Below, piece by piece: positions 30,701 through 55,484 of a stretch of DNA of 64,000 nucleotides (positions are counted from its first letter, which is position 1; each line of letters starts with the position of its first letter). The notes beneath the pieces are model-generated. The model was not told where the DNA came from, searched no databases, and worked only from the letters and a program-made list of their open reading frames with translations. The translations under genes were made by a program, and so were the position numbers. The DNA comes from Blattabacterium cuenoti. Its GTDB lineage: Bacteria > Bacteroidota > Bacteroidia > Flavobacteriales > Blattabacteriaceae. The DNA is taken from contig NZ_CP059200.1 of the NCBI RefSeq assembly GCF_014251755.1, positions 384,746-448,745 on the forward strand, read 5' to 3'.

Positions 30701-30808
30701 ATGACTTTTTGTCATAAAAAACTTTTTTTATGAAAGCTTTTTATTGTCATACTTTTTCTTCCCTTTATTTATATAGGGTTTTATTTTCATTATGGCATAA
30801 TGATTGGA
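30701..30808 (+). promoter_or_regulatory. dnaK upstream region: inverted repeats and a sigma-54-like box
   Basis: Three elements lie in the dnaK leader. ATGACTTTTTGTCAT (30701-30715) is an inverted repeat containing half-sites also present before groESL. A second inverted repeat (30712-30733) has 10-base arms TCATAAAAAA and TTTTTTATGA. Then TGGCATAATGATTGGA (30793-30808) has GG at the -24 position but GG instead of GC at -12. The -24 position lies 55 bases before the dnaK ATG, against 53 at groES. Suggestive, weaker than the groES case. Confidence 0.35.
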
Positions 30809-30849: not shown

Positions 30850-32754
30850 ATGAGTAAAATTATAGGCATAGATTTAGGAACAACAAATTCTTGTGTCGCT
30901 GTTATGGAAATTAATGATCCTGTTGTAATTCCTAATTCAGAAGGGAAAAGAACAACTCCATCTATAGTAGCCTTCGTAGAAGGAGGTGAAAGAAAAATAG
31001 GAGATCCTGCAAAAAGGCAAGCTGTTACCAATCCGCAAAAAACTATTTTTTCTATCAAAAGATTTATGGGAAGAATGTATTCAGAAGTTACTGAAGAATT
31101 GAAACATATTCCTTATAAAGTTATAAAAGGAGGAAACAATACTCCACGTGTTGATATAGAAAAAAGATTATACGCTCCCCAAGAAATATCTGCAATGATT
31201 TTACAAAAAATGAAAAAAACAGCGGAAGATTACTTGGGAGAAGAAGTTAACAGAGCCGTGATTACAGTTCCTGCTTATTTTAATGATGCACAAAGACAAG
31301 CCACTAAAGAATCTGGAGAAATAGCAGGATTAAAAGTAGAAAGAATTATAAATGAACCAACGGCAGCTGCTTTAGCTTATGGATTAGATAAAAGTAATCA
31401 GAATAAAAAAATTGTTGTATATGATTTAGGAGGCGGGACTTTTGACGTTTCTATTCTAGAATTAGGAGATGGAGTTTTTGAAGTTTTATCTACTAATGGA
31501 GATACTCACTTAGGAGGAGATGATTTTGATCAAGTTATCATTAACTATTTGTCAAATAAATTTAAGTCGAAAGAAGGATTAGATCTTAGAAAGGATCCTA
31601 TGGCCTTACAACGTTTAAAAGAAGCATCTGAAAAAGCTAAAATAGAATTATCTTCTTCAAATCAAACAGAAATAAATCTTCCTTATATCACAGCAACAGA
31701 ATCAGGACCTAAACATTTAGTTTTAACCTTAATTCGTTCAAAATTTGAACAATTATCAGAACCGTTAATACAAAGATCCATTAATCCTTGTTCTAAAGCA
31801 TTAAAAGATGCAAGTTTAACAACGCAAGACATAGATGAGGTCATTTTGGTTGGAGGATCTACACGTATTCCAAAAGTACAAGAGGAAGTAGAAAAATTTT
31901 TTGGTAAAAAACCATCTAAAGGAGTTAATCCAGATGAAGTTGTCGCTATTGGAGCGGCTATACAAGGAGGAGTATTAACGGGAGATGTACAAAACGTATT
32001 ATTATTAGATGTGACTCCTTTATCTTTAGGAATTGAAACTTTAGGAGGAGTTTTTACAAAACTTATTGAGTCTAATACAACCATTCCTACTAAAAAATCA
32101 GAAATTTTTTCTACAGCATCTGATAATCAATCAGCAGTAACTATACGAGTAGGACAAGGTGAAAGACCTATGTTCAATGATAATAAAGAAATAGGTCGTT
32201 TTGATTTAGTTGATATTCCTTCAGCACCTAGAGGAATTCCTCAAATTGAGGTTACTTTTGATATAGATGCAAATGGTATACTTAATGTTTCCGCAAAAAA
32301 TAAAGGAACAGGAAAAGAACAATCAATACGTATTGAAACCTCATCAGGATTAAATCAAAATGAAATAGAAAAAATGAAAAAAGAGGCAAAAGAAAATGCT
32401 AAAAAAGATGAAAAAATCAAAAAAGAAATCGAAAAATTAAATGCAGCAGATAATCAAATTTTTCAATCTGAAAAACAATTGAAAGATTATGAAAATAAAT
32501 TATCTGAAAATAATAAGAAAAATATAGAAGATTCTTTAGAAAAATTGAAACAAGCTCATTCTAAAAAAGATTTTGTTTCTATTGATAATTATATGAAAAA
32601 ACTAAACGAAGCTTGGACTAATGCTTCTCAAGAAATTTATAACATAAAAAATACAAATAAAAACAATCAATCAAATAAAAAAGAAGATGAAGAAAAAAGA
32701 AATAGCAAAGGAAATGAAAATATACAAGATGTAGATTATGAAGAAGTAAAATAA
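30850..32754 (+). CDS. dnaK: Chaperone protein DnaK (Hsp70)
   Basis: The ATP-dependent Hsp70 chaperone. From the ATG at 30850 it has 634 residues, starting [16 protein letters not shown]. The ATPase domain (about 1-380) has [12 protein letters not shown] and [11 protein letters not shown]; the linker [17 protein letters not shown] leads to the substrate domain; the acidic end (DVDYEEVK) is kept. The frame opens 6 codons earlier (30832), but the family start favours 30850. It stands alone on the plus strand with an elaborate upstream region; neither grpE nor dnaJ is adjacent. Confidence 0.97.
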
Positions 32755-49954: not shown

Positions 49955-49972
49955 TATGTCATAATGACATTA
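49955..49972 (+). promoter_or_regulatory. Perfect palindrome upstream of the miaB/sigma-54 activator operon
   Basis: TATGTCATAATGACATTA contains the perfect palindrome ATGTCATAATGACAT (49956-49970). The identical 18 bases occur at 53385-53402 before groESL. Its centre lies 44 bases before the miaB ATG, where a promoter would be expected, so it may be an operator for autoregulation. No -24/-12 element is visible here. Confidence 0.65.
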
Positions 49973-50006: not shown

Positions 50007-51356
50007 ATGAAATATAAAAATTTTTATATAGAAAATTATGGTTGTCAAATGAACATATCAGATAGTGATATTATCACTTCTATTTTGTTGAATCATGGTT
50101 TTGTTCTATCTGAAAACTTAGATCAAGCAAATATAATATTATTAAACGCTTGTTCTATTCGAGAAAAAGCAGAATTAACCCTAAAAAAAAGATTAGAACA
50201 ATTAAATTTTTGTAAAAAAAAGAAAAAAATATGGATTGGAATTATAGGATGTTTTTCAAAAGAAATTCAAAATTTTTTTTGTACCAAAAAAATGGTAGAT
50301 TTTTTTATTCCTCCAGATTCTTATAGAGAAATCCCTAATTTTATTTATTATTCTATAATGGGAATGCAGTATCTTTCTTATCTTAAGAAAAGAAATGAAA
50401 CTTATGCGGATATAAGTTTTGTAAAGACAAAACAAAATAACAAAAAAATAACATCCTTTTTAAGTATAACAAGAGGTTGTAATAATATGTGTACATTTTG
50501 TATCGTTCCTTTTACCAGAGGAAGAGAAAGAAGCAGTGATCCCAATTCCATTATTAAGGAATGTAAACGTTTATATCAAAATGGATATAAAGAAGTAACT
50601 CTTTTAGGACAAAATGTAGATTCTTACCTATGGATAGAAGAAAAAAACATGAATCAAAATCAAAAAAAGGTTGTAGATTTTTCAAAACTTTTGGATCTTT
50701 TAGCCAAAGAAATCCCGATGATGAGAATTAGATTTTCTACATCTAATCCTCATGATATGTCTAATAAAGTACTAGAAGTTATTTCTAAACATAAGAATAT
50801 ATGTAAACATATTCATCTACCTGTACAATCTGGTAGTAACAAAATATTAAAATTAATGAATAGAAAATATACACGAGAAGAATATCTCTTTTTGGTACAA
50901 CAAATAAAAAACATTATACCTGAATGTTCTATTTCTCATGATATTATTGCTGGATTTTGTGATGAAAATGAACAAGATCATCAGGATACCATAAATTTAA
51001 TGAATGAAATAAAATATAATTATGGTTATATGTTTTCCTATTCTCCTAGACCTGGAACTTATGCTTACAGAAAATTAAAGGACAATGTTCCTCAACATAT
51101 AAAAAAAAAACGACTACAAGAGATCATTGATTTACAAAGAAAACATTCATTTTATAGAATGCAAGAACATTTAGGTAGAGTAGAAGAAATTCTAATAGAA
51201 GGAGAATCAAAAAAAAATAATCAATATTGGTATGGAAGAAATACACAAAATTTGATCGTAGTTTTACCTAAAAATCTTCTCAAGATAGGAGATTACGCTC
51301 ATGTAAAAATAACAAACACAACATCTGCAACTTTAATAGGAGAACTTTACATATGA
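50007..51356 (+). CDS. miaB: tRNA-2-methylthio-N6-dimethylallyladenosine synthase
   Basis: A radical-SAM methylthiotransferase for adenosine 37 of tRNA. It has 449 residues: an N-terminal UPF0004 domain with cysteines C13, C49 and C82 for the auxiliary cluster, radical-SAM cysteines C158, C162 and C165 (RGCNNMCTFC), and a C-terminal TRAM domain. It is the first gene of an operon with the sigma-54 activator 19 bases downstream. Confidence 0.96.
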   Translation: MKYKNFYIENYGCQMNISDSDIITSILLNHGFVLSENLDQANIILLNACSIREKAELTLKKRLEQLNFCKKKKKIWIGIIGCFSKEIQNFFCTKKMVDFFIPPDSYREIPNFIYYSIMGMQYLSYLKKRNETYADISFVKTKQNNKKITSFLSITRGCNNMCTFCIVPFTRGRERSSDPNSIIKECKRLYQNGYKEVTLLGQNVDSYLWIEEKNMNQNQKKVVDFSKLLDLLAKEIPMMRIRFSTSNPHDMSNKVLEVISKHKNICKHIHLPVQSGSNKILKLMNRKYTREEYLFLVQQIKNIIPECSISHDIIAGFCDENEQDHQDTINLMNEIKYNYGYMFSYSPRPGTYAYRKLKDNVPQHIKKKRLQEIIDLQRKHSFYRMQEHLGRVEEILIEGESKKNNQYWYGRNTQNLIVVLPKNLLKIGDYAHVKITNTTSATLIGELYI

Positions 51357-51375: not shown

Positions 51376-52629
51376 ATGGAATCCATTTCTATCCAAAATA
51401 TAAAACAAAAATTTGGAATCATTGGATATGATTATGCTTTGCATAGAGCCTTAGAAAAGGCAATACAAGTAGCAACTACTGATATTTCAGTATTAGTTCT
51501 TGGAGAAAGTGGAGTGGGAAAAGAATTTATACCCAAAATAATTCATCAATATTCTTCTAGAAAACATCATACTTATATTGCCGTAAATTGTGGAGCTATT
51601 CCAGAAGGAACTATTGATAGTGAACTTTTCGGACATGAAAAGGGTTCTTTTACAGGAGCTACAAGTATGCGAAAAGGTTATTTTGAAGGATCGAATGGGG
51701 GTACTATTTTTTTAGATGAAGTAGGAGAACTCCCATTAACCACGCAAGTTCGTCTTCTTAGGATATTGGAATATGGAGAATTTATTAAAGTAGGATCTTC
51801 TAAAATTCAAAAAACTAATATCCGTATTGTTGCTGCTACTAATTTGAATATAGTAGAGTCTATTCAAAAAGGAAAATTTAGAGAAGATTTGTATTATCGT
51901 TTAAATACAGTACAAATTAATGTACCTCCTTTACGTTTTCGTAAAAACGATATTAAATTTTTATTCAAAAAATTTTCCAATGATTTTTCAGAAAAATATC
52001 ATATGCCTTCTATAACATTGACTGAAGATTCTTTAAAATATTTGGAAAATTATCCTTGGCCTGGTAATATCAGACAATTAAAAAATTTAATAGAACAAAT
52101 CTCTGTAGTGGAACCTACACGTGAAATTTCTATAGAAAAATTAAAAGAATATATTCCAGAAAATATTCCATCGATATCCTTTTCTAATCATAATAATAAT
52201 GTAATAGAAACAAGATCTTTTCATGAGAGAGAAAAAGATTTTTTATACAAAATTTTATTTGATATGAAAAAAAATTTGAATGATTTAAAAAATATTACTT
52301 TTCAATTGATTAAAAATAATTCTAATACTAGATTTATTGAAAAAAATCAACATCTTATAGAAAAAGTTTTTGGAAAAATGATTCATAACAGGGATGATTC
52401 TATTTTTCAATTAGAAGATTCATCTAAATCCTCTTCGGATTTAGATTATGAAGAAGTAGAAGAAGATTTATCCAAAAATGAATTTTCTTCTTTTTCTTTA
52501 CAAAAAAAAGAAATAGAATTTATTCAACAAGCTTTAAAAAAAAATAATGGAAAAAGAAGAAAAGCTGCAAAAGAATTAGGAATTTCAGAAAGAACATTAT
52601 ACAGAAAAATTAAACAGTATGGCTTATAA
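51376..52629 (+). CDS. Sigma-54-dependent transcriptional activator without sensor domain
   Basis: A bacterial enhancer-binding protein of 417 residues. It opens directly with the AAA+ domain: Walker A GESGVGKE at 43-50, the sigma-54 contact loop GSFTGA at 90-95, Walker B GTIFLDEVGE near 109-118, and YPWPGNIRQL near 228. A long acidic linker (about 265-370) leads to a Fis-type helix-turn-helix at 375-417 (RRKAAKELGISERTLYRKI). There is no receiver, PAS or GAF domain, so activity must be set by its level or a partner. It is the only such activator seen in the window. Confidence 0.93.
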   Translation: MESISIQNIKQKFGIIGYDYALHRALEKAIQVATTDISVLVLGESGVGKEFIPKIIHQYSSRKHHTYIAVNCGAIPEGTIDSELFGHEKGSFTGATSMRKGYFEGSNGGTIFLDEVGELPLTTQVRLLRILEYGEFIKVGSSKIQKTNIRIVAATNLNIVESIQKGKFREDLYYRLNTVQINVPPLRFRKNDIKFLFKKFSNDFSEKYHMPSITLTEDSLKYLENYPWPGNIRQLKNLIEQISVVEPTREISIEKLKEYIPENIPSISFSNHNNNVIETRSFHEREKDFLYKILFDMKKNLNDLKNITFQLIKNNSNTRFIEKNQHLIEKVFGKMIHNRDDSIFQLEDSSKSSSDLDYEEVEEDLSKNEFSSFSLQKKEIEFIQQALKKNNGKRRKAAKELGISERTLYRKIKQYGL

Positions 52630-53116: not shown

Positions 53117-53365
53117 ATGGAAAACATGTCATTTATAATCATATTTGGTTTTTTTATTATTTTAACATGTATTTTACTTATGCTGGTTATATTAATACAA
53201 AATCCTAAAAAAGAAAGTATTCATCAATCTTTTATGGAAAAAAATTTTAGATTTTTTGGAATTAAAAGAACAAATACATTTTTAGAAAATATTACTTGGA
53301 TTTTATCCATTATTATATTTTTTTTGATTTTATTCTTCAATTTTTTACTAAAATCAAGACATTGA
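53117..53365 (+). CDS. secG: Protein translocase subunit SecG
   Basis: A small Sec accessory protein of 82 residues. Two membrane helices (about 4-26 and 58-78) flank a loop with VILIQNPKKE, which is typical for SecG. It lies 15 bases after the LptE-like gene and ends the operon; groESL follow after a regulatory spacer of 131 bases. Confidence 0.88.
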   Translation: MENMSFIIIFGFFIILTCILLMLVILIQNPKKESIHQSFMEKNFRFFGIKRTNTFLENITWILSIIIFFLILFFNFLLKSRH

Positions 53366-53384: not shown

Positions 53385-53402
53385 TATGTCATAATGACAT
53401 TA
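53385..53402 (+). promoter_or_regulatory. Perfect palindrome upstream of groESL, identical to the miaB site
   Basis: TATGTCATAATGACATTA, identical over 18 bases to 49955-49972, with the palindrome ATGTCATAATGACAT at 53386-53400. Its centre is about 75 bases before the predicted sigma-54 transcription start, a usual distance for an enhancer-binding site. It is the best candidate binding site for the activator at 51376-52629. Confidence 0.65.
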
Positions 53403-53413
53403 AACACTGATTT

Positions 53414-53441
53414 AATGAAAAAACTTTCAAGTTTTTTCATT
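53414..53441 (+). promoter_or_regulatory. Long inverted repeat between the palindrome and the groESL promoter
   Basis: Two 13-base arms (AATGAAAAAACTT and AAGTTTTTTCATT) are separated by only TC. The repeat abuts the -24 box. It lacks the GC-rich stem of a normal terminator, so a protein-binding or DNA-bending role is as likely as termination of secG transcripts. A similar A6/T6 inverted repeat lies before dnaK. Confidence 0.5.
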
Positions 53442-53457
53442 TGGCATGTTTTTGGCT
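53442..53457 (+). promoter_or_regulatory. Sigma-54-type -24/-12 promoter of groESL
   Basis: TGGCATGTTTTTGGCT fits the sigma-54 consensus TGGCAYR-N4-TTGCW with one mismatch. GG (53443-53444) and GC (53455-53456) have the required 12-base spacing. Transcription would start near 53468, about 30 bases before the groES ATG. No good TAnnTTTG box competes in the spacer. Confidence 0.55.
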
Positions 53458-53496
53458 TTTTGAACGATTAGAACCGTTAACTTTAAAAATTATTAT

Positions 53497-53775
53497 ATGG
53501 TGGAAATAAAGATCAAACCTCTAGCAGATCGCGTTCTTGTACAACCTGATCCTGCTGAAAACAAAACAGTTTCAGGTATTATTATTCCTGATACAGCAAA
53601 AGAAAAACCACAAAAAGGAACAATAATTGCCGTAGGAAAAGGAAAAAAAGATGAACCTATGAATCTAAAAAAAGGAGACAGAGTTTTGTATGGTAAATAT
53701 TCTGGTACAGAATTGAAATGGGAAGGAGAAGAATATCTTATTATGCGAGAATCCGATGTAATCGCTATCATATGA
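53497..53775 (+). CDS. groES: Co-chaperonin GroES
   Basis: The lid of the GroEL chamber. It has 92 residues: [34 protein letters not shown] covers the start and the mobile loop, and [33 protein letters not shown] ends it. It starts the groES-groEL pair, 65 bases before groEL. Confidence 0.98.

Positions 53776-53834: not shown

Positions 53835-55484
<1,650 letters not shown>

Follow-up and report, generated by a model that had tools for sequence, protein, structure and literature searches.

The groESL operon of Blattabacterium cuenoti is very probably transcribed from a functional sigma-54 promoter served by the activator encoded next to it, which would act at a palindrome upstream of the promoter. 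The same arrangement appears to be shared with grpE-dnaJ and dnaK, as the remnant of an ancestral Bacteroidota regulon. This reading is built on what the genomes themselves display, i.e., the promoter, the palindrome, the gene content, their conservation and the co-retention of the components. Within the phylum, it is commonplace for groESL to be under sigma-54; what is new here is the assignment of the activator to its site, the regulon shrunken to three operons and an explanation for the retention of RpoN.

That flavobacterial symbionts of insects retain RpoN has been described as unusual, and a link to nitrogen control was tentatively drawn for Walczuchella (PMC3971599). The present analysis names a likely activator together with its binding site and gives a minimal regulon of three operons, with which the reason for the persistence of RpoN in Blattabacterium can be tested directly. 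A stress circuit composed of sigma-54 plus an activator, widespread in Bacteroidota, is also indicated. We found no description of the Blattabacterium groESL promoter in the literature.

The groESL locus and its -24/-12 promoter

The genome is a single contig of 625,920 bp. The window, i.e., the whole stretch of 64,000 bp analysed here, carries the following features in this order on the chromosome (all positions are those of the window unless a contig is given).

50007..51356, + strand: miaB, first gene of the activator-encoding operon (gene order kept in relatives)
51376..52629, + strand: sigma-54 activator (enhancer-binding protein), the sole strong PF00158 protein in the genome
52619..53101, + strand: small lipoprotein-like gene at the lptE position
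53117..53365, + strand: secG (PF03840, TIGR00810), immediately 5' of the groESL promoter
53442..53457, + strand: groESL sigma-54 (-24/-12) promoter TGGCATGTTTTTGGCT, with the transcript predicted to start (+1) near 53468
53497..53775, + strand: groES (PF00166, E 3.9e-34)
53841..55484, + strand: groEL (PF00118, E 6.5e-75)

The lipoprotein-like gene matched none of the Pfam and NCBIfam profiles, and was named by its position and by weak tblastn matches to relatives.

The original prediction of a groESL sigma-54 promoter, with correctly spaced GG and GC elements and a single mismatch to the consensus, was borne out at 53442-53457. TGGCATGTTTTTGGCT lies 40 bp upstream of groES and differs from TGGCAYGNNNNNTGCW by one mismatch. 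Its GG (53443-53444) and GC (53455-53456) are 10 nt apart and stand in the context TGGCAYRN5TGCW. The exact pattern TTGGCAYN7GCW occurs only once in the 626-kb genome, and that occurrence is at groES. When a weight matrix trained solely on 67 groES promoters from free-living relatives was run over all positions of both strands, the groES site ranked first (17.1 bits), followed by a position within 16S rRNA-like sequence and, in third place, by the site of grpE-dnaJ (16.1 bits).

Sites with up to two mismatches were not in excess in the window (12 versus 10.3 in shuffled sequences), and the groES site was the only one there with one mismatch or fewer. Among the other single-mismatch sites of the genome with sequence fetched, 28 of 29 fall within reading frames; the other intergenic TGGCA-type sites, which we discarded as candidates, appear in 16S rRNA, in a tRNA or 5' of no gene. 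The spacing control GG-N9-GC, shorter by one base, gave 18 scattered matches in 49 genomes. Sequences resembling TTGGCATTTTATAGCW with this control spacing were seen at similar positions (about 380-400 kb) in several genus genomes, and are probably coding.

It is the conservation across 49 genomes that places the groES site beyond chance. The promoter 15-mer is identical in 46 of the 49 genus genomes, and the expectation that close relatives would keep the GG and GC elements held in every one of the 49, with the columns just downstream varying freely. For instance, the promoter is intact in G009 (L045) though it lies 197 bp from groES instead of about 58 bp, with about 140 bp of AT-rich DNA between the promoter and the gene.

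RpoN and its single activator

A sigma-54 promoter calls for rpoN elsewhere in the genome, and the gene was indeed found (RpoN box ARRTIAKYR), as was one RpoN in each of the 49 genus genomes. All 49 also encode one strong activator (215-228 bits), always beside groES; other PF00158 matches were weak, at about 40 bits or less, and were taken as other AAA+ proteins. The activator is composed of an AAA+ domain (residues 15-181), a lid (187-263) and a C-terminal Fis HTH (380-415), and its GAFTGA-type loop reads GSFTGA. The domain-profile search detected no N-terminal receiver domain and the AAA+ domain starts as early as residue 15, so the protein is not of the NtrC type. Orthologues have similar lengths and likewise start at the AAA+ domain, and the recognition helix GISERTLYRKIKQ is nearly invariant among 60 aligned activator proteins. 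The class of the activator is settled by domain profiles and solved homologues.

The protein resembles PspF of the E. coli phage-shock system, which is also a receiver-less AAA+ sigma-54 activator with a Fis-type HTH, and TIGR02974 aligns to residues 15-415. Nevertheless, its score of 275 bits is far under the pspF cut-off (443.55), so that it does not qualify as PspF. It further differs from PspF in a linker of roughly 115 residues between the lid and the HTH, in having chaperone genes as targets and in that no PspA-like partner was identified here. PspF is restrained by PspA, and, by analogy, a partner protein restraining the activator would be a natural guess. As a tentative idea, which we hold to be possible rather than probable, the activator might be gated by chaperone occupancy and not by phosphorylation, e.g., with DnaK or GroEL silencing it as long as unfolded protein does not draw them away. 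The whole sigma-54 system would then serve only the three chaperone operons, which would make it the sigma-54 equivalent of the heat-shock circuit run by sigma-32.

Outside the 49 genus genomes, we surveyed 19 further genomes of the family. RpoN was found in six of the 19, and the same six carry a strong activator beside groES. In RpoN-less family genomes, 11 groES loci were sampled, and none showed a sigma-54 site. Where a clear -24 element is present, the -12 element is GC in G348, GA in G344 and G345, and GT in G360; the last was counted against the sigma-54 reading. Also counting against it are G361, with only a weak -24 half at groES, and G362 (L124), in which groES has no recognisable sigma-54 site despite the presence of RpoN and the activator. 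In the fragmented genome G347, in which RpoN was not detected, a strong activator match (C1:18664-19149) lies on a contig other than that of groES. This match possibly reflects contamination or a missing contig, and was likewise counted against the sigma-54 reading.

Could the -24/-12 element be an inactive relic, with groESL transcribed from a primary-sigma promoter (the Bacteroidota -7 box TAnnTTTG) or by read-through of the secG operon? secG ends a mere 131 bp upstream of groES, and G362 keeps groESL in spite of its missing site. We nevertheless regard this scenario as very improbable, as the TAnnTTTG box is unconserved in the spacer (two of 49 genomes), and the groES site was absent from all loci sampled in genomes without RpoN. 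Moreover, hardly any change is seen in the site and its spacer next to drifting columns, which is unexpected of a relic. In other phyla, groESL is usually under HrcA/CIRCE or a sigma-32 type factor (RpoH), systems that share the target operon but use a promoter type unrelated to that of Blattabacterium. Such control is scarcely conceivable here, as the genome-wide search retrieved no CIRCE within three mismatches and the aligned spacer contains no element of either kind.

The upstream palindrome and a proposed chaperone regulon

The preferred reading, in which a functional sigma-54 promoter is served by the neighbouring activator, draws on four further elements of the window.

53386..53400, no strand: palindrome ATGTCATAATGACAT, putative activator-binding site, recurring 5' of grpE, of dnaK (as a variant) and of the miaB/activator operon
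49956..49970, no strand: copy of ATGTCATAATGACAT 5' of the operon of miaB and the activator, with no sigma-54 site beside it; putative site of autoregulation
30793..30808, + strand: dnaK sigma-54-like promoter TGGCATAATGATTGGA, with GG instead of GC at -12; GG-N10-G in 20 of 20 genus genomes examined
30701..30715, no strand: ATGACTTTTTGTCAT, variant of the activator site 5' of dnaK

The palindrome had been placed at 53385-53402, about 75 nt before the predicted +1. Both its existence and this distance stood, but the limits were slightly too wide: the palindrome proper is ATGTCAT-A-ATGACAT at 53386-53400, centred on 53393. With up to two mismatches, it is found in 45 of the 49 genus genomes (0.4 expected), and it is likely the site at which the activator binds. 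When the complete genome was scanned for exact TGTCATWATGACA, matches appeared 5' of three operons: groESL, grpE-dnaJ (C1:91653) and miaB-activator (window 49957). A fifth palindrome, at C1:141212 near an acyltransferase-like gene, was not conserved in ten relatives and was therefore taken as chance.

The grpE-dnaJ operon has a -24/-12 site, TTGGCAAAAATTTTGCC, with the exact palindrome upstream, and this arrangement is kept in 18 of the 20 genomes where dnaJ was located (lost in G014 and G022). At dnaK, the -12 element is GG or GA, not GC, which was counted against the sigma-54 reading. Sigma-54 sites are thus found at groESL, dnaK and grpE-dnaJ, the targets that mark the Bacteroidota chaperone regulon. 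Upstream of lon and clpB no sigma-54 site was found here, and these genes appear to be a variable rather than a defining feature of the regulon. All conserved sigma-54 sites that we found are at chaperone genes and none at nitrogen genes.

Two minor observations concern these operons. The true start of dnaK is probably the ATGAGT at 30850, because in several relatives the ATG lying 18 nt further 5' does not share the reading frame. In G032 (L254), the grpE promoter segment is present twice, in identical copies about 630 bp apart, beside a repeat-rich 5' coding sequence of grpE; short tandem repeats in the GrpE N-terminus occur in G019 and G003 as well.

The palindrome 5' of miaB is kept in many relatives and lost in G015, G018 and G040. 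The lack of an adjoining sigma-54 site suggests autoregulation, and the activator probably regulates its own operon through this palindrome. The same feature could also be taken to mean that the palindrome belongs to another regulator, with groESL still transcribed from a sigma-54-dependent promoter and the neighbouring activator acting from elsewhere; the palindrome-to-promoter distance indeed varies among grpE (about 23 nt), groES (about 49) and dnaK (about 85). This alternative is unlikely in our judgement, since palindromes precede all three sigma-54-type chaperone promoters as well as the operon of the activator, and the genome has one strong activator. In addition, free-living relatives show an excess of the half-site at their groES promoters: the half-palindrome TGTCAG stands just 5' of the promoter in 57 of 67 loci (2.6 expected).

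If the neighbouring activator does act at the palindrome, RNA polymerase bearing RpoN would sit at the groESL -24/-12 element, and the receiver-less AAA+ protein would bind at ATGTCATAATGACAT, some 75 bp 5' of the predicted start. The activator would then loop to the RpoN holoenzyme, contact it via the GSFTGA loop and remodel the polymerase with ATP, leading to promoter opening. The same protein would drive grpE-dnaJ and dnaK. A retained chaperone regulon of this kind would explain why RpoN and exactly one activator are kept in Blattabacterium. The groESL promoter had been offered as the reason why an activator survived genome reduction; it may well help to explain this survival, but not as the sole reason, as grpE-dnaJ and dnaK share the arrangement.

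Free-living relatives suggest where this regulon came from. We examined 80 groES loci of named Bacteroidota. TGGCAYN7G(A/C) was present at 67 of them (0.8 expected), in most cases 50-90 bp from the gene on its 5' side, and an orthologue of the activator (50-61% identity) precedes groES in the same orientation at most flavobacterial loci. In Flavobacterium psychrophilum, the sigma-54 motif SM4 was mapped by transcription start sites at groESL, dnaK, grpE-dnaJ, lon, htpG, skp and clpB, and a gene for a sigma-54-dependent regulator followed by lptE lies just 5' of groES, as in Blattabacterium (PMC9723704). From the 67 of 80 relatives and the F. psychrophilum starts, sigma-54 control of groESL is ancestral in Bacteroidota and had been described there before, contrary to its original portrayal as exceptional. 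The two systems differ in extent, F. psychrophilum having three activators and a broader regulon that includes gliding motility, and Blattabacterium one activator and three chaperone operons; the available text of that study assigns neither an activator nor a binding palindrome to the chaperone promoters (PMC9723704). In regulons computed across bacteria, the GroES/GroEL, GrpE, DnaJ and DnaK groups were enriched under sigma-54, most highly in Flavobacteriia; in the accessible portion of that report, neither Blattabacterium nor the activator nor its site is analysed (PMC12316311).

Inverted repeats around the promoter

Directly upstream of the promoter lies an inverted repeat to which the original prediction gave a prominent place.

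53414..53441, no strand: 28-nt inverted repeat of A- and T-tracts, with 13-nt arms and a 2-nt centre

The repeat itself is real, its arms (53414-53426 and 53429-53441) being perfect in this genome, but it is not a defining part of the promoter region, because it is strong in only six of the 49 genus genomes, where it is near-perfect. The mean score over the genus genomes is 7.5, versus 5.6 in shuffled sequences. We therefore rejected it as the core element. One may still ask whether it is the main regulatory element, either as an operator or as the terminator of the secG operon. Besides the perfect arms, a terminator-like hairpin-plus-T-run stands between secG and the promoter in free-living relatives, and a 33-bp pyrosequencing gap 5' of groEL in strain Bge was ascribed to secondary structure (PMC2768785). 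Its rarity in the genus and its arms of A/T-tracts, with no terminator-type T-run directly after, make either role quite unlikely.

A second inverted repeat spans the predicted +1 (53463-53478). It follows the pattern AACGATTAG(A/T)ATCGTT, and takes the form AACGATTAGAATCGTT in only a subset of genus genomes. The repeat score of the leader is, overall, barely higher than that of shuffled sequences (5.7 versus 5.1). In this genome, the repeat is imperfect and reads AACGATTAGAACCGTT.
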